This document shows positions 2,871 through 32,398 of a stretch of 64,000 nt of DNA, piece by piece. The stretch is taken from the NCBI GenBank assembly GCA_963930775.1, contig OZ005689.1, positions 4,340,001 to 4,404,000 on the forward strand, written 5' to 3'. Source of the stretch: Cliona cf. orientalis (Eukaryota; Porifera; Demospongiae; Clionaida; Clionaidae). The notes below the pieces were generated by a model. It was not told where the DNA came from. It saw only the letters and a program-made list of their open reading frames with translations, and did no database searches. Each line of letters begins with the position of its first letter. Within the stretch, counting starts at the first letter, position 1. A program made the position numbers and the translations under genes.

Positions 2871-3804
2871 ATGATTCGAAAAGTATTCATTCTTGGTCTG
2901 GTTGTGGCAGCCTGCCTGGAACTCACTCAGGCCGGAAAACCAAATTTCCAAGCCAAGATAGAAGATTATGCTGAGGCCCTTATTCAAGGTATGCAAGCAT
3001 GCAATGCCATGTGATTATGTACATGTTATTCATTTAAATAAAATTCATGTGCTTCACTGCAGCAGCAAATTATTAAACAGTAAAAGATATTAGTCCCATA
3101 ATCAAATAAAAATTATCACCTACTGAGTTAATAATAAAAACCGAATTCCTTGCATGCACCCTCCCCAAACATTGCTGTTGGTTCATGGAAATAGCAGAAT
3201 CTGACTCCAATTATTCACTTAGCGTAATCAATTACTATAGGCTATTAAACCTGCACTACCTAAAACTGTGGCTATCGCTACTAGTAAAATTATTGCTTTG
3301 CTGTTTACTCTCATGCCCACATTATTGACAGAGGTGATCAACCAGAGCTTTGAGGAGATGGTATCAGGTAACTAATCAAATTTGTAGAAAACAATAAACT
3401 TATAATATTATACATGCATGATTTGCCAATTGTGTTGCTTCAAAGTCAGCATGCGTGCATGGTGCACTGTATAATTTAATTTGGTATAGCCAGCAATAAT
3501 TACTACTGTACATGTCCTATTACCGGTATACTTCTCCTGGTGCAGCACCCAGCATGTCACATGACTTATACGTGTGCATTATACTTAATTCTGGATCCAA
3601 TAATATTCAGCACAAAAGAGCAAAGACTGCAATAAGGCGACTTTCCGCAAGGAAATTAAACACATGCATAATTGCGATGGAAAGTGTTGTTCAAAGAACA
3701 GGGACGGAACAGATGGGTATAAGTGCGACGGAAGCAGTCAAAACTACTGTGGGTACTGTTTCGGAAGTTTTGAATGTAAGTTATTGTTTACAGACAAATT
3801 TTAA
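2871..3804 (+). CDS. Small secreted cysteine-rich peptide, copy 1
   Basis: Three coding exons, 2871-2988, 3332-3367 and 3611 to 3776 or 3804, all joined in phase 1. Exon 1 encodes MIRK plus a hydrophobic signal peptide and the start of an acidic propiece. Exon 2 is a 12-codon mini-exon continuing the propiece. Exon 3 encodes the cysteine-rich mature region, with cysteines spaced like copies 2 and 3 (C, C, CC, C, C, C). It does not stop where the other copies stop: it reads on through GSFEC, giving an eighth cysteine if the GTAAGT at 3777 is not used, with TAA at 3802-3804. If that donor is used, an extra exon near 4027 or 4048 would end the protein. The dibasic KK before the first cysteine in the other copies is KSK here. 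I do not recognise a named family. Confidence 0.72.
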
Positions 3805-11593: not shown

Positions 11594-14497
11594 ATGAATA
11601 TGCTCCCGCAATCAGCAATCCTAGTATGTCTAATGTTGTTCAGAATCTGCGAATATGGAGAGTGTGAGCAAGTTTACATCATACCTTCGCCGGAGAGTCC
11701 TTGCCCAGCACTGCAGTTACCTTGCTATACTCTAATGGAATACATAAACAGTATAACGCTGTGTCAAAGTTCCAATGTTGCTCTGACTTTTGTTCCAGGA
11801 AACCATATACTTGGAACTGACTTTTCTATCACCAACAAAACCTGCTTTTTGATGTCAACTGTGGCATACTATAATTATAATGCTTCTTCAAGCTGCACTA
11901 TTACATGCATTAATTCAAGCAGAATGGATTTAAGCTTAATTGGTACAGTGCTAGTGAGTGGCCTTTCTTTTATGAAATGTGGAGGCAATATTGCTAGAAA
12001 TGTCAATCGTTTCTTACTTAAGAATTCGAATTTTACCATGGATCCACATTCTGCTTACATGTACAGAGGAAGAGCATGGTCTGTATTTGGATCAGAAATT
12101 CTCTCAATTGATAATTGCATATTCACAAATAATGCAGCATCTTATCAAGCTGGAGCACTGTATGTATCGGCTGTCTTGAACGTAACTATTACTGCATGCA
12201 CATTTAATAATAATACTGCTCGCGGCGGAGGAGGACAAGGGGGAGTTGTGTACATCAGTGCAACAAATTCCATCATTGATGGGTCTATATTTTTCAACAA
12301 CAGTATTCAAGGAGGAGGAGCAGAAGGAGGAGCATTATATGTTGATGCAGTGCAATCTGTCATCAACAATTCTACGTTTGAATGCAATACGATACATGGT
12401 GGCAGTGCAAATGGGGGAGCATTATATATTGATGCAGTGGAATCTGTCATCAGCAGTTCTACATTTGAATGCAATACGATACGTGGTGGCAGTGCAAATG
12501 GGGGAGCATTATATATTGATGTAGTGGAATCTGTCATCAGCAGTTCTATGTTTGAATGCAATACGATACGTGGTGGCAGTGCAAATGGGGGAGCATTATA
12601 TATTGATGCAGTGGAATCTATCATCAACAGTTCTACGTTTGAATGCAATACGATATATGGTGGCAGCGTGAAAGGAGGAGCATTATATGTTAATGCAATG
12701 GAGTCAGTCATTAACAGTTCCTCATTTGAACGCAACACGGTACATGGTGGCAGCGTACAGGGGGGAGCATTGTATGTCAGAGCAGCAAATTCAAGTGTTG
12801 GTATGTCTACATTCATCAATAATACGGTAACTCATGGAGTGCCTTGGTATATTATTGCAAACAGCTCGATTATAAGCCATGATGCTACTTATGAAGGGAT
12901 AGAATTGTACTGGACTTATAACTATATCATGACCCTTACTGATGGAATCTGTGGTGAGTCAAGGATAATAATAGTTTGTGTAACCTATGGCTATACAATC
13001 TATGTGCATAGTGGCCGGCAAGGGTGATCAAACTAGGGTCACCATGCACCCTCGTTCTATATGATAGCTATTATATAGACACTGTTTAGGAAGTTTCTAC
13101 GTGAATTAGAAAATGAAAGGGCTCTATGTAGAATCCCGAGTGAAGTGAAGGTTCTACGGAGCCCTGAGGTCTTCTAAATCACATGGAAACCTAAATCATA
13201 TTAAAGCACTGTATAATAGCCTGAGAATACATTGTAGGGGTTCTATCAAAATCTTGTTGGGATTCTATCAGACTTGTAGGAGTTCCATCACTTTAAACCT
13301 GCTAATGACAAATCAGATTGCAGTATTTGTTACAACTATGATCTAAGAAGCTTTTAATAATATTATTGTTGTTACCAAAGATAATGATAATTATATGCAG
13401 GCCAATTTCCTAGACCAGTGAACTGTCAACCACCTCGACCTCCTATCAATGGTACTGTAAAGTATAACACAACACAGGAGGGGTCACTGTCTGTATACAA
13501 ATGTGATAATGGGTTCATTCCTTATGGAGAATTCAAAACAAAATGCTATCAAACGGGACAATGGTTCCCTGATCCCATGGAACTAACTTGCATTGAAGAG
13601 CCCTGTAAGTGTATTAAATCTATAGCTTAAACCATAATAATAATAATTATTATAACTCAACTAATACAAACTATTTCAGTCAACTGTACCATCCTTCCGT
13701 CTATACCTATTAATGGTGTTCTTCTGAATTTGACTTCAACCTCTGCTGTTATCGGGTGTGCAGCTGATGATAACTTGAATACTGTAACAGTCACATGCGT
13801 GAGCCAAAATGTGTGGAGCCACCCCACTGACCTTATTGAATGTTCTTTGCCTGTGGAAACTACAAATACTAGTAAATGATCTTGACCATGCACACAATGT
13901 CATAATCATAATAATACTTCAGCCGTCTATAATCATTGAATAGATATGATGCATGTATAACCCATACATAATAGTGCATAATAATAAGTTATATAGTATG
14001 CCACATCAGCTAAACTAAATTGTCATTTTCAATACAGGAAAAGGCGGTAGTGGGACGTTGATATTGGCTACGACAACTATCACATCAGTTTTCATCTCTT
14101 GTTTTGTAATCATTATGTTTATAATATTCTGTATATGGGCTGTCATTTTTAAGAAGAAGCATAAAGGTTAGGCTATATTATGCTATTAAGACCATCATGA
14201 ATTATTACTAAAGACCACATGTAAAACTGTATTGCTGTTGATGACAATAACATTATACATCATACTATAGGCAATGGTAATGATCGAAGCGTAGGTACTT
14301 CAACCACTCCCGCACCATATTATGAAGAAATACAACCATCATATTATAATCAAGTATCAAATGAAAATCTGAAACGCAATCAATTGCAAGAAGATCTTGA
14401 GCTTCAGGAGAATACAGCTTATCAAATTACAACTTTGAATTCAAAAGAAATTGAACTTCATGAGAATGCTGCTTATTGCAGTGTCAAAGTTTACTGA
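11594..14497 (+). CDS. Single-pass surface protein: beta-helix repeats, two sushi domains, tyrosine-rich tail
   Basis: Five exons, 11594-12953, 13401-13604, 13680-13871, 14038-14166 and 14271-14497, all joined in phase 1, give 703 residues. A signal peptide (about residues 1-24) precedes a right-handed beta-helix-like region with Asn-rich strands. This contains about six 29-residue tandem repeats of the type GGALYIDAVESVISSSTFEC (about residues 245-415). Exons 2 and 3 each encode a sushi/CCP module with four cysteines. Exon 4 encodes a transmembrane helix (about 593-622) followed by KKKHK. Exon 5 is a cytoplasmic tail with YEEI (Tyr646), YNQV (Tyr654) and two related blocks, ENTAYQI and ENAAYCSV. 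The architecture suggests an extracellular recognition receptor with SH2-binding tyrosines. The exon structure and domains are seen; the signalling role is inferred. Confidence 0.85.
12327..12820 (+). repeat. 87-base coding tandem repeat in the beta-helix
   Basis: Consecutive 87-base units beginning ggagcattatat encode 29-residue beta-helix coils. The three central units are nearly identical at the DNA level and the outer ones are more diverged, which suggests recent unit duplication or gene conversion. The long open frame on the opposite strand (12307-12819) is a shadow of this repeat. Confidence 0.85.
13080..13212. repeat. Palindromic element in intron 1 of the sushi receptor gene
   Basis: The arms run tttaggaagtttctacgtga ... 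gggctct and agagccc-like text ... aaatcacatggaaacctaaa. They are bounded by cactgt on both sides and have a tagaatcccgagtgaag-type centre. It is related in sequence to elements at 20258-20400 and 24640-24782. Confidence 0.7.
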
Positions 14498-15141: not shown

Positions 15142-18100
15142 ATGCTCTTGCTTATACTTGTAGTAAGTCTTGTTGGATTGTTGCTCCACACTCCAGAACT
15201 TGTGGGAGCAGCTGCAGTGATCTACTATGTTACCCCATCTCATGAACCACCCAATCCCGACTGTCCCGCCCCATTCAGTGGTGATCCATGTGAAACTCTA
15301 GACCACTATGCCAGCAATGTCACCGGATATTTTGCTGGGAATGATAATGTGACAATGATATTCTTGAGTGGGAATCACACGTCTAAAATTTGTTTTATTT
15401 TCTCTTGCCCGAGTCCTAGTGAACCCTGTCTGGACCTCACCATGGTCGGTTTGAGGGATGACGTAGAAATTCACCTCGGGTGTGACTTCACGTTATCGTA
15501 TGTTAAGATATTGACCATGTCGAACTTGACTATTCACGGCAATGAAAAGTATGGTGTCATCCTCGAAGAAGCTCCAACTATAGGAATGGCACTGAATCAA
15601 GTGACATTCATGGGTGCACTTTTGTATTTTGGTGGCCACTTGTCCTCCAGCGTCACACTGAACAATTCTCACTTTGAGGCCAGCTTGATCGAGATGGAAT
15701 CCAAATCCTCTAATGTTAATGTATCGATTTTGCAGTCAACCTTTATAACAGGGTCTCACCAGGCAAATACAGTATCCATGTACATGATACATGATTCTGT
15801 GTATGTCACCCTGATCATTAATGGTGTTGTTGTTACAAGTCAGTCTGATATTGAACTACAAGCACCTCCGCCACGGTACAGTAACTGTACATTGTCAACT
15901 CCTGACTCAATAGTGGTAGCAGATGTATCGATATGCTTGATGACTGGCAGGCTTGACACGCATATAACAAATAGTAGCTTTTCACGTGAACATGGAATGG
16001 CATTTCATTACCAGTTGGGGACTAAAGCACATGATTCCATTTTAAATGTTAAGTTTGAAAATGCTTCGTTTCAGAATTACGACAATGGAGCAATAACCTT
16101 AAGATTCCTTACGTTTGCTGTGCGGATAAATGTTAAATTTGTGTACTGCAGCTTTGAGAATAATTCACTCACTAGCACAGCTGATAGTTCCAGCGGAAGT
16201 GGAGCCTCTGGTGTACAAATAATATATCCCCTGCATGGTGAGGCTGATTATACAGATGTCAATCACACAGTCAAATTTGAACGGTGTATGTTTCACCGTA
16301 ATATTGGTCAAGTTGTCTTGCTATACAAGTCAAAATATATAACTTTCGTGGACTGTACATTCACTGAAAACAATGGAACTGGCATTGTTGCTTTTCACAC
16401 CTACCACTTACGTTTCTCTGGTCAAATGAAGTTTCTGAACAATTCAGCATATCGTGGTTCAGGACTGGTTTTAACGGAATCACCGCTTTACATTGACCAC
16501 ACAACTTCTATCACGTTTTATGGAAACTTAGCATCTAACAAAGGTGGAGGTATACTGGTCGAGGGACATTCAGTTACTGCTGAAGACAATCCTGCTACCA
16601 TTCAACACTGCTTTTATCAAATAAAAGGAAAGAATGGTACTCAAAAGTTTAATTTCACCGCCAATTTTGCTTCTCTGGGAGGGCATGACATCTACGGTTC
16701 ACCCTTAGCTAGTTACTGCCTAGCATATTATGATCCGTCGGACCATCAAGCAATAATTATAAGGAGCTATGAACAATTAGAAGCAAATATGTTTCACTTT
16801 CAATCCAAGACCCTCTCCTCTATAACATCTGATCCCCAACGTGTATGCATCTGTAATGATTCTTACAGTCCCGTATGCGACGACGTGGATAGCATATTCT
16901 TATCCGGTTACACTCTTTATCCTGGGGAGGTGTTTAACCTCTCTGTGGCAGTTGTGGGGGTGGAATTTGGTACAGTGGCTGGTGTGGTTCAAACAAACTT
17001 AGTACAACCTGATGGTATAGTAAATCCGGAGTACCATCCGGTGTTTAATGTCACCAAATGCACAGACTTGAACTTCACTGTGTTTCATCCCAGCCCGAGT
17101 CAAGTGACCATGTACCTCACTATCCAAAACCGCTATGCTCCCTACTATGACAAGAAAATAATCATGGAATCCATAACGACTTATCATGAAAACCACAACA
17201 TTATACCTTCTGAATTGCTAACTGTGCCGATATTTGTCGATATCACTCTCCTACCATGTCCACCAGGCTTTCGACTTGTAGGAAAACACCCCAAATGTGA
17301 CTGCTATCCCCAAATTGCTGAATTCATTGTATGTAGTATTGTTAACGGCACAGGTTTAGTGTCTAGAAACCGTACAGTGTGGATTGGCATTGACAATGAC
17401 AACAATAACACAATATTTAGCAAAAGCTGTCCTTTTGAATATTGCCAGTTTGATCAGGTAGTGGTCGATATATCAACTGACACTGACTCACAATGTGCAT
17501 TCAACCGTGCAGGAAGGCTATGCGGTGGATGTATGGAAGGATACAGCTTGGCAATAGGAAGTACTCACTGTCTTCACTGCCCAAATAGCAGCTACTTTGC
17601 TCTAGTACTATTTTTCATTTTTGCTGGCCTTGTACTTGTGCTGCTAATACACATTCTTAACCTCACTATCACACAGGGCACTATCAATGGTATTGTCCTC
17701 TATGCAAACATCATCTGGACTTATGAGGAAGTGCTGTTTCCCAGGAGAGATATGCTGATTCTTCCCCTCAGGATCTTCTTGGCTTGGCTCAATCTTGATT
17801 TTGGAATAGAATCTTGCTTTGTTCGAGGTCTGAGTGCCTTCTGGAGCTCATGGCTACAGTTTATCTTCCCACTCTACATCTGGAGCATAGCCGTGGTGAT
17901 CATACTTATGTGCCGACACTCTACTAGGTTTACAAAGATGTTTGGTGATAGAGCTGTACCTCTGCTGGCTACTCTCTCTCTAATGTCCTACCTTAAACTC
18001 TTGCGTACTATTGTCGATATCTGCTTGTATACAACACTGACTGTCTATCCATCTGAGTCAAAGATTGTTATTTGGTACCTTGATGGAAATCTGCTGTATG

Positions 18101-18768
18101 GTCGCTATCCCCATATCTTCCTACTTTTGGTTGCCATAGCAACTTTTATGCTTGTGTACGTACCATACACAGTGGTCATGTTTTTCATCCAGTGGCTCAG
18201 GAGATTTAGTCACCTCAGGCTGCTCAAGTGGATCTCGAAATTCAATCCGGTTTTTGATGCTCATCTAGCTCCTTTGAAGGACAAGCATCAGTACTGGTTT
18301 GGAGTCCTGTTGATTCTAAGGGGTGTGCTCCTGGTCATTTTCACACTAACATCTGCCGATTATCCAGAAACAAATCTCCTTATCTTATTCATTACTACAA
18401 CTACCTTGTTCTTTTATGCAATGTATTTCCAGTTCTATAAGTCAAAGGTGACGCTGTTACTTGAAGGTTTATCGCTTATGAATCTGATTCTAGTTGCTGG
18501 TTGTAGCCTTTATGTAGTAGCAGTACACGGAGATCAGAGTGCTTTGATCAATGTTTCTGTCTCGATAATGGTGGTGCAATTCTCTGCTGTCATTGTATGG
18601 CACTGTGTTCAAATTTGCTGCTTGAAAAGCATGCAGAGACGAGGCTACTTAAATGTTGAAACTGTCCCTGAATCTGATGTAAACACCAGACAAGTGAACG
18701 CAAAGGCAGATGACTTCGATGAGACAGATGAACTACGTGATTCAGTGCTCATTAGCAAAACTTACTAA
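15142..18768 (+). CDS. Large beta-helix ectodomain protein with polytopic C-terminal membrane domain
   Basis: A single-exon frame of 1208 residues. I start at the ATG at 15142; the codon before it is GTG and not a eukaryotic start. Residues 1-24 form a signal peptide. The ectodomain (to about 815) has many N-glycosylation sequons and beta-helix-like repeats (SxFxxN turns). It ends in a cysteine-rich knot with CGGCMEGYSLAIG near residue 793. About nine to ten hydrophobic helices follow (about 817-1160), including AWLNLDFGIESCF and YWFGVLLILRGVLL, and then an acidic cytoplasmic tail. I know such proteins only as uncharacterised invertebrate surface proteins; receptor or transport function is unproven. 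Partial copies lie at 9430-10600, 19503-20255 and 24380-24640, so this is the intact member of a local family. Confidence 0.85.
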   Translation: MLLLILVVSLVGLLLHTPELVGAAAVIYYVTPSHEPPNPDCPAPFSGDPCETLDHYASNVTGYFAGNDNVTMIFLSGNHTSKICFIFSCPSPSEPCLDLTMVGLRDDVEIHLGCDFTLSYVKILTMSNLTIHGNEKYGVILEEAPTIGMALNQVTFMGALLYFGGHLSSSVTLNNSHFEASLIEMESKSSNVNVSILQSTFITGSHQANTVSMYMIHDSVYVTLIINGVVVTSQSDIELQAPPPRYSNCTLSTPDSIVVADVSICLMTGRLDTHITNSSFSREHGMAFHYQLGTKAHDSILNVKFENASFQNYDNGAITLRFLTFAVRINVKFVYCSFENNSLTSTADSSSGSGASGVQIIYPLHGEADYTDVNHTVKFERCMFHRNIGQVVLLYKSKYITFVDCTFTENNGTGIVAFHTYHLRFSGQMKFLNNSAYRGSGLVLTESPLYIDHTTSITFYGNLASNKGGGILVEGHSVTAEDNPATIQHCFYQIKGKNGTQKFNFTANFASLGGHDIYGSPLASYCLAYYDPSDHQAIIIRSYEQLEANMFHFQSKTLSSITSDPQRVCICNDSYSPVCDDVDSIFLSGYTLYPGEVFNLSVAVVGVEFGTVAGVVQTNLVQPDGIVNPEYHPVFNVTKCTDLNFTVFHPSPSQVTMYLTIQNRYAPYYDKKIIMESITTYHENHNIIPSELLTVPIFVDITLLPCPPGFRLVGKHPKCDCYPQIAEFIVCSIVNGTGLVSRNRTVWIGIDNDNNNTIFSKSCPFEYCQFDQVVVDISTDTDSQCAFNRAGRLCGGCMEGYSLAIGSTHCLHCPNSSYFALVLFFIFAGLVLVLLIHILNLTITQGTINGIVLYANIIWTYEEVLFPRRDMLILPLRIFLAWLNLDFGIESCFVRGLSAFWSSWLQFIFPLYIWSIAVVIILMCRHSTRFTKMFGDRAVPLLATLSLMSYLKLLRTIVDICLYTTLTVYPSESKIVIWYLDGNLLYGRYPHIFLLLVAIATFMLVYVPYTVVMFFIQWLRRFSHLRLLKWISKFNPVFDAHLAPLKDKHQYWFGVLLILRGVLLVIFTLTSADYPETNLLILFITTTTLFFYAMYFQFYKSKVTLLLEGLSLMNLILVAGCSLYVVAVHGDQSALINVSVSIMVVQFSAVIVWHCVQICCLKSMQRRGYLNVETVPESDVNTRQVNAKADDFDETDELRDSVLISKTY

Positions 18769-19184: not shown

Positions 19185-19500
19185 ATTATAATGTGTGAAA
19201 GACGGTAGCTTGCAATAGCTAGAAAAGGCACCACCTGGTCATTAGATATGTTAATAGTTACATGCTAAGTAATTTCAAAATTGCTACAATGTTGGAAGTG
19301 CATGACTTCATTTCAACAGACACCAGCAAAAGTTAGTCCTCGGAAGTGTACAGAGTTCCTGTATCTCGAGCTTCATGGTTGCTATAAAAGCAAGCAGAAG
19401 TTTCGAACCATTTCAAGCCTGCTCACTTGACTGAAAACAAGCATAGATTGAACTGTGAATTAAAAAATTTCATCACCATCACCATCTACAGTAGCTAGCT
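19185..19500 (+). promoter_or_regulatory. Orphan copy of the peptide-gene upstream module and TATA promoter
   Basis: 19185-19320 resembles the upstream module of peptide genes 2 and 3 (acctggtcatta ... ggaagtgcatgactt). TATAAAAGCAAGCA at 19383-19396, then GTTTCGAACCA and TTCAAGCC, match their promoters. No peptide exon follows; a beta-helix pseudogene begins at about 19503 instead. It appears to be the remains of a further peptide gene whose body was lost. Confidence 0.75.
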
Positions 19501-19502
19501 AT

Positions 19503-20255
19503 ACAGGTTTAGTATCAAGAAACCATACAGTGCGGATTGGCATTGATAATGATAATAAATTTCAGCAAAAGCTGATGTCCTTTCGAGTATTATCAGTTTG
19601 ACCAGGTAGTAGTAATGGACACATACACAATATTATGCATGCGGTGGGTGTGCAGAAGGTTACAGCTTGGCAATATATAGGAAATACCCACTGTTTTCAC
19701 TGTCCAAACACTAGCTAGCTACTTTGGCTCTAGTATTATTCTTTACTTTTGCTGGCCTAGCACTTATCCACATTCTTACCACACAGAGCTATGGTGATTC
19801 TTCCCCTCAGGATCTTCTTGGCCTCGCTCACTCTCAATTTCAGAATAGAATCTTGCTTCGTTAATGTAAAAGGTCTGAGTGCCTTTTGGAGCTCTTAGCT
19901 ACAGTTTATTTTCCCACTCTACATAGCCATGCGATCATACTTGTGTGCTGACACTCTACTAGGCTTACAAAGATGCTTAAATGGGTGATAGAGCTGTTCC
20001 TCTGCTGGCTACTCTCTTCCTGATATCTTATCTTAATGTACTGTTGTCGTATACAACACTGACTGTGTATCCATCTGAGTCAAAGATTATTAAATTAGGT
20101 ACCTTGATGGAAGTTTGCTCTATGGTCGCTATCCCTAAGGGGTATACTCCTGGTCATTTTCACACTAACATCTGCTGATTATCCAGAAACGAATCTCCTT
20201 ATCTTATTCATTGCTACAACTACCTTGTTCTTTTATGCACTGTATATAGGATCAA
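19503..20255 (+). pseudogene. Decayed copy of the polytopic C-terminal region
   Basis: Aligns with about 17350-18430 of the intact gene at 15142-18768. Examples are ggtttagtatcaagaaacc against ggtttagtgtctagaaacc, and cttcccctcaggatcttctt shared exactly. Several internal deletions, frameshifts and stops are visible, and no long frame is retained. The part right of about 20020 is included in the tandem duplication and recurs at 24374-24640. Confidence 0.85.
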
Positions 20256-20257
20256 AA

Positions 20258-20400
20258 GTTTTTAGGCAGTGTTAGTCGGTTTCTATGTAATTTAGAAGAT
20301 GTAAGAGCTCTGTAGAACCCTTGCTCCGCTCGGGATTCTACATAATATTATTATAGGCCTTCGATCTTCTAAATCACGTAGAAACCTCCTAAACTGTACA
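20258..20400. repeat. Palindromic element, unit 1
   Basis: Arms start with tttctatgtaatttagaaga and return with tcttctaaatcacgtagaaa; the centre is cttgctccgctcgggattcta. It shares its arms with the element at 13080-13212 and is inserted at the end of the beta-helix pseudogene. Confidence 0.75.
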
Positions 20401-20811
20401 TGTGTCTATAGCTATTATAATAATATAGCAGCTCTTGTCTGGCACATTGAGAATATATAGACTATATTATTATAAGTATAATAATTGTGCCTGGAGTTCC
20501 TGAACATGATTATACCGTATAATATGTACTTAGTTCAAAATTAATCGTAGCTGATTCCTAGGGTTCCGGAATGCTACATAGGTAATTCTCTTTCTTCTAG
20601 CTTGCTTCAAAGCTATGTATTTTCGGAGCACAATAGTAAATTAAACATTAAGGCTATACTGTAAGGAATATGATCACTAAATTCCTATAATATGAGATGG
20701 TATGAAGTTTTTATAGTACACATGTAGCTGTATATATTATGCAATATACAGATAATTATCGTACTAACTGTACCTATTATAAATTTAATTACCATAATAA
20801 TATGCACTGAT

Positions 20812-21190
20812 AAGACGGTATAGCTTTCATGCAATACTATTAGCATGAAAAGATACTACCTGGTCATTAAGGGATATGTAGGAGTAAGGTGCATGCTAAT
20901 TTAAGCCCTTCTGATTTTAATTGCTACAACAATGGAAGTGCATGACTTAGATTCGATAGATATACCTCCACAGCTAAATTATTTAGCTTACTGATAATAA
21001 TGCATGATATAGATATTATAATATTATGTGAACGACAGTGTAGCTTTCATGTAATAGCGTGAAAAGACACTACCAGGTCATTAACGGTCACATAGGAGTA
21101 AGGTAGCTACATGCTAATTTAAGCCCTTCTGATTTTAATTACTACAATGATGGAAGTGCATGACTTTGACTCAATAGATATAATATTATA
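20812..21190 (+). promoter_or_regulatory. Duplicated upstream module of peptide gene 2
   Basis: Two copies of a roughly 150-base block (about 20812-20970 and 21029-21185). Each contains gctttcatg..a..catgaaaaga, ctacc(t/a)ggtcattaa, ggagtaaggt, catgctaatttaagcccttc and ggaagtgcatgactt. The CTTTCATG and CATGAAAAG parts form a short inverted repeat. The same pair occurs before gene 3 and once at 19185-19320, always upstream of the TATA promoter, so it is a candidate enhancer. Confidence 0.65.
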
Positions 21191-21288
21191 TATGTACCTC
21201 ACAGCTAAATTATTTAGCTTTTTGAATTACATGTATATGAATGTAATTAAGGAGTTCCTATATCTCAGGCCTCGAGCTCAGTGACCAC

Positions 21289-21295
21289 TATAAAA
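21289..21295 (+). promoter_or_regulatory. TATA box of cysteine-rich peptide gene 2
   Basis: TATAAAA is followed by GCAAGCAAAAGTTTCGAACC and TTCAAGCC. Transcription probably starts about 25-30 bases downstream. A 5' UTR intron from about 21391 (GTAAGG) to the CAG at 21468-21470 is likely. Confidence 0.75.
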
Positions 21296-21477
21296 GCAAG
21301 CAAAAGTTTCGAACCAATTCAAGCCCACTCACTTGACTAACAACAGTGCAGATTGAATTGTGGATTGAAGAGTCTCACTATCTACTTCAGTGTAAGGTGA
21401 AATATTACAGAACCCAACCACTTGCACTATGCATATATACCTGTGTTTTGCTAAAATTATGTTCACTGCAGGAAATA

Positions 21478-21991
21478 ATGATTCGAAAACTATTCATTCT
21501 TGGTCTGATTGTGGCAGCCTGCCTGGTACTCACTCAGGGAAAACCAAATTTCCAAGCCAAGATAGAGGATTATGCTGAGGCCCTTATTCAAGGTATACAC
21601 AAAAACATAGTAGTGCATGCATAGAATCGCGTACATAAAATACAACATTATTATTATGTGCACACTATATCATGCATTATAGAGGCTATCAACCAGAGTT
21701 TTGAAGAGTTAGCATCAGGTAACCAATATTAATGCGCTTGAGTACTCATTATTGTGCATCTATGCAGTAATTATTATAATTGTAGCAGTTATGCATTAAT
21801 ATTTATTAATATTATTGGTGATTCCACTCATGACAGTACAAAAGAAGGACTGTACTGGCAAATTCTTAGGTCAAAGGAATCACATGCACAACTGCAAAGG
21901 AAAGTGTTGTTCACCAAACCGGAATGGAAGTAACGGATACAGATGTGATGGAAAAAGTCAGAAATACTGTGGCTATTGCTTCTCCAAATGA
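21478..21991 (+). CDS. Small secreted cysteine-rich peptide, copy 2
   Basis: Exons 21478-21592, 21683-21718 and 21837-21991, joined in phase 1, encode 101 residues. Residues 1-21 are a signal peptide. Residues 22 to about 51 are an acidic propiece (EDYAEALIQ, NQSFEELAS) partly encoded by the 36-base middle exon. The last exon encodes a basic region beginning QKKDC with seven cysteines in the order C, C, CC, C, C, C, and a terminal CGYCFSK. KK before the first cysteine is a possible proprotein cleavage site. Charge and cysteine density resemble secreted antimicrobial or venom-type peptides, but I recognise no named family and the function is unknown. The start is the first ATG after the inferred 5' UTR intron. 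Confidence 0.85.
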
Positions 21992-22184
21992 GGTTAGTAA
22001 AAGCTGTCATCATCAATTTACACAATGTCACGTAGCTAACTTAAAGGCTAGGCAAGCTAGAACATAATATGGAAAGGGTGGAGAGTTGAGCATCATGTAG
22101 TCACTGCTGAGCAGTCACGGCCTACAGTCACACGAGTATATAGTTGTTAGGCTAACTTCAAAGGTATTTTCCCACAGTGATACT

Positions 22185-22300
22185 TAATGTGGCTATTGCC
22201 TCAAATGATAATGTTAACAGGTTAGAAAATTGAGTATGACTAGCCGAAAAGTGTTGCAAAGAAAAGTGACAGGAATAGTCCAAATTACTGTGGCTTATCA
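22185..22300 (+). pseudogene. Relics of extra cysteine-rich exons, unit 1
   Basis: Text at about 22188-22212 (aatgtggctattgcctcaaatga) resembles the 3' end of peptide exon 3. Text at about 22240-22296 (aaaagtgttgcaaagaaaagtg ... attactgtggct) resembles its central part. Neither retains a full frame. The counterparts in unit 2 are at about 26555-26662. They suggest an older, decayed peptide exon before the duplication. Confidence 0.45.
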
Positions 22301-22797
22301 AACTTAACATGAGCGCATGCAAGTTACATTTTTTCCAGTGTCAACAGACTGAACGTAAATTTTAGATCAATTGCTAACCAGCGGCAGTTAGATAGGTGCA
22401 CCTGCCACAAAAAGGTATAATAGTAACAACCCAGCTTTAACTTGCTAATACAGTACTATACATGTACATTATTATTATGATCGTATTTGATATCCATTTA
22501 CTTTTAGGAATTCATGATGGACAAGGTCAGAACTGAGCAGCTATAGATTACATGCATTTACAAAATAGAGAACAATTAGTCCAGTAGATATTATAGCTTT
22601 AGGATGTATGCTCAGTTTCTCTAAGCTTGGATTTGTTTATCATAATTGCAACAAAAATTGTTATGATGAATAAAACATACACTATAATATAGTTGCTTTA
22701 CGATTCGATCAATGTTTGAAGTGCCCTTAATAAGTATGAAGCTTACATTATTTGCCAATCAGTTACATTATACATTGTTAGTGAAGAGTGTCCACGA

Positions 22798-24373
22798 TCA
22801 ATCGATATATTTTGTTAGCGATATTCTTGGCACTATGTTCATAGATTGTAGCTCCTGGAAGAGCAGTTTACAGGCATAGGGTATCTTCAGGGAGGATATG
22901 TCACCAGACGACTTGCAATAATGACACCTGCAAACACAGATGGAATATTCATCAACGTACATGTAGATAGATCAGCCACAAATACAGTAGCCAGCTGCAG
23001 CCTCATCCCCAGGGCACTCCCATGCATGTTTTCAATGTTACCAGGCTCCTCAATCTTTTTCAACTCCCCCCTCTCTTCTCTCGCGGGTGTTCAAAAAAAT
23101 CGGGGAACCTGGGGACAAGGCTGGAAAAAACCTGGTAGCTATGTACAACAGTAGAATTAGAAATAGATACAGTCCCTTAGTTATTAGGTAATTATAGACT
23201 GTTTCTAAGTATGCCGAGTCATACTATACAGTAACTGTGATGCTGGCTCGTAGGCTTGTACACATGTACATGTAGGTGGCTACCCCCTCCCCTTTCCGCA
23301 AGCATTATATGTTTGGAGTGTACCCCTCATAGTCGTCCATCCCCCATCCACTACACATGTACATGTACGTGCACAAAAAAAACACACACACACACACACA
23401 TACATAGACATGCACACCCACTCACCATCCAGAGTATCCCAGGAGTCCACACTTTCCACACACATCCACCTCAAATAATATTATATCGCTAGAGATCATC
23501 AGCCTCTCCAGCAGGAGCATGCTGGCCCCATATCCGATTAGACAATCCCTTTCCATTTCTCCGAGACGAAGCCCCCCCTCTCGGGATCGGCCCTCCGTCG
23601 GCTGTCGAGTGAGCACGGCACGGGGTCCTTTCGATCTGGCATGCATCTTGTCCAGCACCATGTGCTTCAGCTTCTGGTAGTAGACAGGGCCAAAGAACAC
23701 ATAGACACTGAGAGGCTCTCCTGTAATTAGAATACAATTATCACTATTATTGAGGGTAAACGTACAATACTCATATTCTACACACATTCATGCACTTTCA
23801 TTACTATATTACTTGTTGTCTTCAAACTTCTACCCCAAGCCATCACCAAAATAATAAAATGTACATTGTACATGTATATACGTACATGTAATTGGTACAA
23901 GTTGCTAAGCTGTGTTAAAACTTTTACCACCCACAAAAAAGGCAAGTCTACTCCCTCAAAAGTCCGCACTACCTCCTCCCTTCCCCAGTTTCCTATTTCT
24001 TTACGCTATTCCATACCTGTGATTCCAGAAGTGAGGTAGTCCTTCCCAGCGTAGTTGAAGCCGTGTCGAATGAGATCAGCACTCACATCCTCCACCTTGT
24101 CCCCACTAAACGCCGTTCCATAGTGGAACTTCCCATCCAGCACCCCTGCTTTCCCCGCCAACAGCTCCATCAATTTACCGACTGTCATACGTGATGGAAA
24201 GCCGCATGAGGATTCATGACAATATCCGGACATATACCCTGGTCGTTGAAAGGCATGTCTTCTTGATTGGCTATCATTCCACACACTCCTTTCTGACCGT
24301 GACGACTGCTGAACTTGTCGCCAAGCTCGGACCTGTGCATGGTGTGAAGAAGCATCTTGATGAGGTAGGACTC
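22798..24373 (-). pseudogene. Duplicated 3' end of POLR3B (dead copy)
   Basis: Three pieces match the last exons of the intact gene: 22798-22927, 23426-23720 and about 24017-24373. The copy lacks everything upstream, since the tandem-duplication junction cuts it at 24373. It also carries a 2-base insertion near 24203 (gccgcatgag against gccatgag) that shifts the frame before the conserved [10 protein letters not shown] motif, and a 6-base insertion near 23480. It cannot encode a subunit. It is useful as a neutral clock for the age of the duplication. Confidence 0.9.
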
Positions 24374-24640
24374 CTGATATCCTATCTTAAAAACTTTTAT
24401 GACAATGTCATTGTACTGTTGTCGATATCCGCCCGTATACAACACTGACTGTGTATCCACCTGAGTCAAAGATTATTAAATTAGGTACCTTGATGGAAGT
24501 TTGCTCTATGGTCGCTATCCCTAAGGGGTATACTCCTGGTCATTTTCACACTAACATCTGCTGATTATCCAGAAACGAATCTCCTTATCTTATTCATTGC
24601 TACAACTACCTTGTTCTTTTATGCACTGTATATAGGATCA
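24374..24640 (+). pseudogene. Second copy of the beta-helix C-terminal pseudogene fragment
   Basis: Duplicate of 20020-20255. It keeps gtcgatatccgcccgtataca, which is present in the intact gene but deleted in unit 1, so each unit has lost different bases since duplication. No frame is retained. Confidence 0.85.
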
Positions 24641-24782
24641 AAAGTTTTTAGGCACTGTTTAGTCGATTTCTATGTAATTTAGAAGATGTCAGAGCTCTGT
24701 AGAACCCTTGCTCCGCTCGGAATTCTACATATTATTATAGCCCTTCGATCTTCTAAATCACGTAGAAACCTCCTAAACTGTG
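24640..24782. repeat. Palindromic element, unit 2
   Basis: Duplicate of the element at 20258-20400, with the same arms and a cttgctccgctcggaattcta centre. Confidence 0.75.
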
Positions 24783-25183
24783 TCTATAGCTATTATAATA
24801 ATATAGCAGCTCTTGTCTGGCACATTGAGAATATTATTATGGATTATAATATGATAAGTATTGTGCCTGGAGTTCCTGAACATGTACTTAGTTCAAAATT
24901 AATCATAGCTGATTCCTAGGGTTCCGGAATGCTACATAGGTAATTCCCTTTCTTCTAGCTTGCTTCAAAGCTAGGCTAGTGATGAATATTTTCGGAGCAC
25001 AATAGTAAATTAAACATTAAGGCTATACTGTAAGGAACATGATCACTAAATTCCTATAATATGAGATGGTATGAAGTTTTTATAGTACACATGTAGCTGT
25101 ATAATAATATATTATGCAATACAGATAATTATCGTACTAACTGTACCTATTATAAATTTAATTACCATAATATGCACAGATAA

Positions 25184-25555
25184 GACAGTATAGCTTTCAT
25201 GCAATACTATTAGCATGAAAAGATACTACCTGGTCATTAAGGGCTATGTAGGAGTAAGGTGCATGCTAATTTAAGCCCTTCTGATTTTAATTGCTACAGT
25301 AATGGAAGTGCATGACTTTGATTCAATAGATATAATACCTCATCTATAGCTAAATTATTTAGCTTACTGATAATAATGCATAGATATTATAATATATATG
25401 TGAACGACAGTGTAGCTTTCATGTAATAGCATGAAAAGACACTACCAGGTCATTAACGGTCACATAGGAGTAAGGTACATGCTAATTTAAGCCCTTCTGA
25501 TTTTAATTACTACAACAATGAAAGTGCATGACTTTGACTCAATAGATATATCTCA
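25184..25555 (+). promoter_or_regulatory. Duplicated upstream module of peptide gene 3
   Basis: Two blocks at about 25184-25335 and 25400-25555, equivalent to 20812-21190: gctttcatg, ctaccaggtcatta, ggagtaaggt, taagcccttctgatttt and aagtgcatgacttt are all retained. Confidence 0.65.
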
Positions 25556-25656
25556 CAGCTAAACTATTTAGCTTTTTAGAAGTATATGATGTACAATATC
25601 ATGCATGAATGTAGTTAAGGAGTTCCTATATCTCAGGCCTCGAGCTCAGTGACCCC

Positions 25657-25663
25657 TATAAAA
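25657..25663 (+). promoter_or_regulatory. TATA box of cysteine-rich peptide gene 3
   Basis: TATAAAA, again followed by GCAAGCAAAAGTTT and TTCAAGCC; equivalent to 21289-21295. Confidence 0.75.
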
Positions 25664-25848
25664 GCAAGCAAAAGTTTTGAACCAATTCAAGCCCGCTCAC
25701 TTGACTAACAACAGTGCAGATTGAACTGTGGATTGAAGAGTCTCACTATCTAACCTCTGTGAAAGGTGAAAACGCAACCAGTTGCATATTATTATTGACT
25801 ATGCATACCTGTTTTTTTTTTTGCTAAATTATGTACACTGCAGGAATC

Positions 25849-26339
25849 ATGATTCGAAAACTATTCATTCTTGGTCTGATTGTGGCAGCCTGCCTGGTAC
25901 TCACTCAGGGAAAACCAACTTTTCAAGCCGAGATAGAAGATTATGCTGAGGCCCTTATTCAAGGTATACACAAAAACACAGTAGTGCATGCATAGAATCA
26001 CGTACATAAAATACAACATTATATTATATGCACACTATATCATGCATTATAGAGGCTATCAACCAGAGTTTTGAAGAGTTAGCATCAGGTAACCAATATT
26101 AATGCGCTTGAGTACTCATTATTGTGCATCAATGCAGTAATTATTACAGTTATGCATTATTATTGGTGATTCCACTCATGACAGTACAAAAGAAGGACTG
26201 TACTGGCAGATTCATCGGTGAACGGACACACATGCACAACTGCAAAGGAAAGTGTTGTTCAAAAAACCGGGATGGAAGTAACGGATACAAATGTGATGGA
26301 AAAAGTCAGAAACACTGTGGCTATTGCTTCTCCAAATGA
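25849..26339 (+). CDS. Small secreted cysteine-rich peptide, copy 3
   Basis: Exons 25849-25963, 26053-26088 and 26185-26339, phase 1 joins, 101 residues. Same plan as copy 2: signal peptide, acidic propiece, then a basic seven-cysteine region that starts QKKDC and ends CGYCFSK. The middle exon is identical to that of copy 2, and exon 1 differs at four codons. The cysteine-rich exon differs at nine codons, eight of which change the residue (K/R, L/I, Q/E, N/T, P/K, N/D, R/K, Y/H). No cysteine is touched. The mature region is thus more diverged than the surrounding introns. The gene runs convergent with POLR3B, whose stop codon is 816 bases downstream on the other strand. Confidence 0.85.
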
Positions 26340-26554
26340 GCTCGAGGTTAGTAAAAGCTGTCATCATGCATCAATTAACACAATGTCACATAGCTAACTA
26401 AAAGGCTAGGCAAGCTAGAACATAAATTAATATGGAAAGGGTGGAGAGTTGAGCATCACGTAGTCACTGCTGAGCAGTCACGGCCTACAGTCACATGAGT
26501 AGTTGTTAGGCTAACTTAATTTTCGACTCAGCAAAGGTATTTTCGCACAGTGAT

Positions 26555-26662
26555 ACCCATTGCCTCAAATGATAATGTTAAGAGGTTAGAAAGTTGAGTA
26601 TGACTAGCCGAAAAGTGTTGCTAAGAAAAGTGACAGGAGTAGTCCAAATTACTGTGGCTTAT
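26555..26662 (+). pseudogene. Relics of extra cysteine-rich exons, unit 2
   Basis: Counterpart of 22185-22300, with text aaaagtgttgctaagaaaagtg and attactgtggct. Similar to peptide exon 3 but with no usable frame. Confidence 0.4.
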
Positions 26663-27154
26663 CAAACTTAACACGAGCGCATGCAAGTTACATTTTTTTC
26701 AGCGTCAACAGACTGAACGTAAATTTTAGATCAATTGCTAACCAGCGGCAGTTAGATAGGTACACCTGCCACGAAAAGGTATAATAGTAACAGCCCAGTT
26801 TAACTTGCTAATACAGTATTATTATGATCGTACTTGATATCCATTTACTTTTAGGAATTCATGATGGACAAGGTCAGGACTGAGCAACTGTAGATTACAT
26901 GCATTTACAAAATAGAGAACAATTAGTCCAGTAGATATTATAGCTTTAGGATGTATGCTCAGTTTCTCTAAGCTTGGATTTGTTTATCATAATTGCAACA
27001 AAAATTGTTGTGATGAATAAAACATACACTATAATATAGTTGCTTTACAATTCGATCAATGTTTGAAGTGCCCTTAACAAGTATGAAGCTTACGTTATTT
27101 GCCAATCAGTTGCGCTCAGTTACATTGTACATTGTTAGTGAAGAGTGTCCACGA

Positions 27155-32398
<5,244 letters not shown>

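Follow-up and report, generated by a model that had tools for sequence, protein, structure and literature searches.

In the 64,000-nucleotide stretch of DNA from the sponge Cliona cf. orientalis analysed here (contig OZ005689.1, positions 4,340,001 to 4,404,000; hereafter the window), three clustered genes would each encode a small, putatively secreted cysteine-rich prepropeptide. Two of them, copies 2 and 3, arose through a 4.3-kb tandem duplication. The exon that carries their predicted mature peptide, exon 3, differs between the two copies at 7.7% of its bases (12/155), compared with about 3% for the noncoding DNA of the duplicated units. This difference in rate is real, albeit drawn from a small sample: the tests compare one pair of copies with 12 changes, and the P values are uncorrected for the choice of this exon. 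Diversifying selection on exon 3 is a plausible, but not a proven, cause.

The tandem copies and the rate of exon 3

A search of the 216.8-Mb assembly (149 contigs) for the peptide gene found at least three copies, all inside the window; copy counts are lower bounds. All three are read from the forward strand. The exons of copy 2 lie at 21478..21592 (115 bases), 21683..21718 (36 bases) and 21837..21991 (155 bases, stop codon included), those of copy 3, with the same lengths, at 25849..25963, 26053..26088 and 26185..26339 (stop codon included), and those of copy 1 at 2871..2988 (118 bases), 3332..3367 (36 bases) and 3611..3775, where the stop codon appears to be split between a GTAAGT donor and exon 4. 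The predicted coding introns measure 89-343 bases in the three copies, and the exon lengths put the introns that follow exons 1 and 2 in phase 1. Copies 2 and 3 would each encode a precursor of 101 residues and copy 1 one of 106, with the putative signal peptide and the first part of the pro-region on exon 1, pro-region on exon 2 and, after a Lys-Lys pair in copies 2 and 3, the putative mature part on exon 3. The predicted cleavage leaves a mature part of 47 residues in copies 2 and 3, with seven cysteines in the pattern C-x13-C-x3-CC-x11-C-x7-C-x2-C and an excess of K+R over D+E of +7 and +6, respectively; its counterpart in copy 1 has 50 residues, seven cysteines and an excess of +1. That these are secreted defence or interaction peptides, as the earlier note on this DNA proposed, is a reasonable inference.

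Self-BLAST and alignments place copy 2 in a tandem unit at 20048..24373 and copy 3 in a second unit at 24434..28724, both on the forward strand; the end of the latter continues into a longer minus-strand gene for an Rpb2-type RNA polymerase subunit. The units are nearly identical, as the earlier note had stated (2.8-3.7% noncoding difference), and its codon-by-codon comparison was reproduced: exon 2 is identical (0/36 differences), exon 1 differs at four codons (two replaced and two silent; 4/115 bases) and exon 3 at nine codons and 12 bases, with eight codons replaced, one silent and no cysteine changed. In intron 1, for which the earlier note counted about two substitutions, 3 of 89 aligned bases are substituted and there is a one-base gap. 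A ratio of 8 to 1 also overstates the contrast between replaced and silent codons, as two of the three codons with double changes have paths that mix silent and replacing steps.

As background we took the units' noncoding DNA, promoter and 3' untranslated region (3'UTR) included, under four scorings of gaps. These gave 100/3205, 90/3196, 88/3193 and 118/3225 differences (3.1, 2.8, 2.8 and 3.7%), which exon 3 exceeds with one-sided Fisher P values of 0.0049, 0.0154, 0.0135 and 0.0148; in the second and third scorings exon 3 itself stands at 10/154, part of it being turned into gaps. The comparison with introns that the earlier note had suggested thus finds exon 3 the more divergent, at 7.7% versus about 3%. 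Tested against exons 1 and 2 together, the excess has a P value of 0.039. No 155-column noncoding window reached 12 changes in three of the four scorings, where the counts showed no overdispersion; the fourth had 10% of its windows at that level, with overdispersed counts (P 0.0002-0.009). In neutral simulations at rates of 3.1 and 3.7%, at least 12 substitutions arose with P values of 0.002 and 0.010 and at least eight replaced codons with P values of 0.019 and 0.044.

Variable sites, one loop and the competing explanations

Protein searches returned 14 relatives from ENA, all unnamed, which comprise nine exon-1 and five exon-3 reading frames. Aligning the latter five with the three copies from the window gave a set of eight exon-3 peptides, in which K3, C5, H15, H17, N18, C19, G21, K22, C23, C24, N27, G30, S40, Q41, C44, G45, C47 and F48 are invariant and the motifs HMHNC, GKCC and CGYCF are near-invariant. 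Six of the eight have seven cysteines. P0013 and P0014 have six, the fifth being missing, so the odd number belongs to part of the family. With copy 1, P0010 and P0011 as outgroup sequences, seven of the eight codons replaced between copies 2 and 3 fall at family-variable sites (P 0.018), where the replacement rate of 9.0/57.7 exceeds the 100/3205 of noncoding DNA with a P value of 1e-4 (5e-5 to 5e-4 over the four backgrounds). With six outgroup sequences and three cut-offs, 7, 7 and 6 of the eight fall at such sites (P 0.11, 0.04 and 0.05), and the rate there, 0.12-0.16 per site against 0.031, gives P values of 2e-4 to 2e-3 over the cut-offs and two backgrounds (2e-4 to 7e-4 against 100/3205, 5e-4 to 2e-3 against 118/3225). 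The replacements tend to fall outside the sites that the family conserves, a pattern that speaks against simple decay.

We estimated the ratio of replacement to silent rates (dN/dS, or omega) in several ways. For exon 3 the NG86 method gives 1.08 (S 27.0, Sd 2.0, N 126.0, Nd 10.0), compared with 0.29 for codons 1-50, and maximum likelihood gives 2.68 at a kappa of 4.25 (P 0.32) and 1.72 at a kappa of 2 (P 0.56). When the neutral rate is fixed to the noncoding rate, omega for exon 3 rises to 3.15 and 2.91 (P 0.003 and 0.005). For the whole gene the likelihood estimate is 0.9-1.2 and, with the rate fixed, 1.7-1.9 (P 0.06-0.09). On the earlier note's own test, a dN/dS above 1, exon 3 thus falls short of significance, which it gains, at about 3, only when the neutral rate is fixed.

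Several results weigh against selection as the cause of the excess. Inside exon 3, dN/dS is not significantly above 1 by NG86 or by maximum likelihood, and over the long term the exon is under purifying selection, with silent sites saturated and copy 1 at a dN of 0.27 from copy 2 and 0.23 from copy 3. When each changed codon is counted as one event, the P value for the excess becomes 0.034 or 0.077, depending on the background. The first MAFFT alignment puts the noncoding difference at 4.0-4.6% and the excess at a P value of 0.03-0.06; 12 changes or more occur in 565 of its 4022 windows, those over exon 3 among them, and the polymerase-gene intron (22/283) and other stretches look as divergent in it as exon 3. 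This alignment places gaps poorly and creates false substitutions beside them, with intron 2 at 7/96 there versus 1/96 in all four scorings. The avoidance of conserved sites with six outgroup sequences has a P value of only 0.11 at the strictest cut-off. Finally, seven of the 12 substitutions lie within 20 bases (21861..21880, forward strand; clustering P 0.0045), in the presumably exposed loop between the first cysteine and the HMHNC motif. Codons 8-14 of the exon-3 peptide carry 5.0 replacement and 2.0 silent changes, and the other 43 codons, with 5.0 replacement changes at 107.5 sites (4.7%), are not above background (P 0.25). The earlier note's claim that the mature exon outpaces the surrounding duplicated DNA accordingly stands for exon 3 but not for the whole mature part, the excess being limited to codons 8-14.

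Since the loop holds the excess and the rest of exon 3 lies at background, a single clustered event is a serious rival. By this account some 20 loop bases of one copy were replaced at a stroke, through a multinucleotide mutation or a micro-gene-conversion, and ordinary drift explains the remainder of exon 3. Besides the clustering itself, the richness of the change in transversions fits such an event: 8 of the 12 substitutions are transversions, compared with 32/100 in noncoding DNA (P 0.026 under the first scoring and 0.06-0.09 under the remaining ones). The same transversion excess also counts in favour of selection. Yet a search of the assembly found no other site that matches either 30-base version of the loop with three mismatches or fewer, and the loop also varies, with changes of length, over the eight-sequence family, as repeated selection or tolerance would lead one to expect. 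We consider a single event rather unlikely.

A second rival invokes relaxed constraint, under which a spare copy drifts neutrally after duplication and the excess is a chance fluctuation among few changes. In its favour are the NG86 omega of 1.08 and P values that are modest as well as uncorrected; the outgroup residues, as we read them, also assign five replacements to copy 2 (with less certainty for the R/K one) and one to copy 3, leaving two unplaced. Against this, the replacements mostly avoid family-conserved sites, neither reading frame is broken and variable sites change about 4 to 5 times as fast as noncoding DNA, and we regard relaxed constraint as quite unlikely. The earlier note's attribution to diversifying selection is therefore supported by the rate excess and by the avoidance of conserved sites, and weakened by the dN/dS tests and by the clustering of the changes in one loop.

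Copy 1 and the uniform exon 1

The three-gene comparison adds a new observation: copy 1 (2871-3775) is an older third copy whose exon 1 is near-identical to those of copies 2 and 3 but whose exon 3 is saturated at silent sites, its introns being strongly diverged as well. Copy 1 matches copies 2 and 3 at 92% over about 140 bases holding exon 1, at 83% over exon 2 and at 67-69% over the stretch containing exon 3; the intron and upstream pieces compared match barely better than shuffled sequence (z 0.3-2.3 in five comparisons). Among codons that encode the same residue, silent differences of copy 1 from copies 2 and 3 number 1/34 and 1/32 in exon 1, 2/9 and 2/9 in exon 2, and 13/31 and 16/34 in exon 3 (exon 1 versus exon 3, P 1e-4 and 4e-5; exon 1 versus exon 2, P 0.11 and 0.12). 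Counted over all silent sites, exons 1-3 differ at 1.0/27.0, 3.5/6.3 and 21.3/26.0 between copies 1 and 2, and at 2.0/27.7, 0/6.7 and 2.0/27.0 between copies 2 and 3, where silent sites show no rise.

One explanation for the uniform exon, compatible with the others considered here, is that exon 1 is frozen by constraint at the nucleotide level, such as splicing or RNA structure, and that exon 3 is fast only by contrast. The near-identical stretch of copy 1 does stop close to the splice sites, and the exon-1 peptides of the nine ENA proteins are 76-95% identical to that of copy 2. At residue 17, copy 1, P0005 and P0007-P0009 have Glu, whereas Val is found in both recent copies, P0001, P0003, P0004 and P0006, and Gln in P0002, a split which suggests that the exon-1 lineages may be old and separate and which speaks against conversion. 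Copies 2 and 3, on the other hand, differ in exon 1 at the background rate (4/115), and for this reason a constant constraint factor shared by the copies is rejected (P 0.0064 or less over settings, assuming an old neutral distance of at least 0.5). The predicted RNA folding of exon 1 is ordinary relative to simple shuffles (z -1.6, -0.4 and +0.7), and a frozen exon 1 would leave the comparison of exon 3 with noncoding DNA untouched. We therefore hold a frozen exon 1 to be unlikely, and gene conversion to be most likely the better reading; the signal/pro exon seems to be homogenised while the mature exon diverges, in a conotoxin-like manner.

Taken as a whole, the best explanation in our judgement, and one to which we give about even chances, is selection on one mature-peptide loop after duplication, combined with conversion of exon 1. 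Copy 1 is the old gene, and copies 2 and 3 come from the 4.3-kb tandem duplication. After the duplication, the loop from the first cysteine to HMHNC outpaced neutral DNA on an unchanged cysteine scaffold, most likely through selection for altered binding surfaces on duplicated, putatively secreted peptides. Exon 1 has meanwhile stayed uniform across the cluster, for which local gene conversion is the most likely cause. We further hypothesize, tentatively and with some doubt, that this sponge family is independently conotoxin-like, with conversion homogenising the signal/pro exon, diversifying selection repeatedly rewriting the mature loop and an odd seventh cysteine in part of the family.

Flanking DNA, database searches and known peptide systems

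A TATAAAA word lies upstream of all three copies, and by motif match a putative TATA box is placed at 21289..21296 (forward strand) for copy 2, at 25657 for copy 3 and at 2674 for copy 1. An exon 4 ending with AATAAA would supply the 3'UTR of each copy. In copy 2 it would span 22508..22674 (forward strand), with the AATAAA signal at 22669, and begin after an acceptor-like word common to the three copies; its match between copies 1 and 2 is weak (61%, E 1e-5), and none is listed for copy 3. Intron 3 of copies 2 and 3 contains short exon-3-like pieces (22185-22293 and 26628-26657), which reach uncorrected P values of 0.005-0.01 in four of six comparisons (P <=0.01 in 7 of 18 comparisons overall) and are perhaps relics of exon duplication. 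In intron 1 of copy 1, 21 bases at 3262-3282 resemble the exon-3 end of the two recent copies (shuffle P 0.01, uncorrected). A promoter- and 5'UTR-like segment at 19382-19472, 82-84% identical to the corresponding DNA of copies 2 and 3, is likely a relic of another gene copy; no extra gene copy was found.

Of five neighbouring reading frames scanned with Pfam, one has Rpb2 domains, one an Ets domain and one nothing; a beta-helix domain scores above the cut-off in one and slightly below it in another, and the upstream neighbour is a beta-helix protein. The name POLR3B for the Rpb2-type gene is that of the earlier note, Pfam showing Rpb2 domains. Unit 2 contains truncated polymerase-subunit exons at 23425-23720 and 24019-24373, which differ from unit 3 at 17-19 positions, all transitions in all four scorings. 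Each unit starts (20048-20245 and 24413-24631, compared with 18005-18426) with a remnant of the 3' portion of the upstream large beta-helix frame, and an element of about 200 bases is duplicated within the upstream region of each unit (20797-21220 and 25167-25574). Another long frame with beta-helix-type Pfam matches holds 87-base tandem repeats, of 29 residues each, at 12200-12808.

Pfam gave no family above cut-off for the three precursors and a single chance hit among the eight exon-3 members; the matches seen, to DUF4252 (E 0.09) and DUF818 (E 0.057), were taken as chance. PDB gave no sequence match, four amylase hits (E 1.8-2.2) being taken as chance, no relatives were confirmed in viral contigs or GTDB genomes, and Rfam found nothing in the window at gathering scores. 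The AlphaFold2 model is of low confidence (pLDDT 53, pTM 0.24). Among the top matches listed by word searches of open-access papers, compared by wording rather than by sequence, no title or abstract opening describes the peptide family.

Little has been mapped of the peptides that early-branching animals secrete, and the presumed sponge host is not known to have a venom apparatus. Tandem units that carry noncoding DNA to either side give the family a clean internal control, and public assemblies hold relatives of it, so that it can test whether the pattern of conserved signal and variable mature part in venom peptides originates from selection, exon-specific mutation or conversion of the signal exon.

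Among sponge peptides, the knottins known as asteropsins and stryphnines are likewise small and disulfide-rich, and stryphnine precursors are also divided into signal, intermediate and mature parts; the pattern used to search for these knottins has six cysteines with C-x6-C and CC-x3-6-C spacings, as opposed to seven with C-x13-C and CC-x11-C here (PMC13418204). The ASABF-type peptide of Suberites domuncula is, like ours, cationic and rich in cysteine and carries a signal peptide, but it has eight cysteines in a predicted CS-alpha-beta motif, compared with seven here or six in P0013 and P0014, and a 64-residue mature part directly after the signal (PMC3210614). The spider hexatoxin superfamily, compared by description rather than by sequence, shares a conserved signal, a dibasic processing site, a variable mature part, fixed cysteines and gene duplication; it differs in host and in a variable propeptide, which is little changed among the three copies here (PMC4029134).

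Conotoxin genes, as described in PMC3862624, share with the sponge genes three exons that roughly correspond to signal, pro-region and mature peptide, and constant cysteines between variable loops; that source also discusses recombination and odd numbers of cysteines. They differ in introns over 3 kb, compared with 89-343 bases here, and in cysteine pattern, and the sponge family keeps the near-invariant HMHNC, GKCC and CGYCF motifs and is without a Pfam or PDB family match. For the conotoxin superfamilies with three exons in Table 5 of that source, Dn and Ds in exon 3 both exceed their values in exon 1 (PMC3862624). The recent pair, copies 2 and 3, departs from this in having no rise at silent sites from exon 1 to exon 3, whereas the older pair, copies 1 and 2, shares with conotoxins a silent divergence that is greater in exon 3 than in exon 1.

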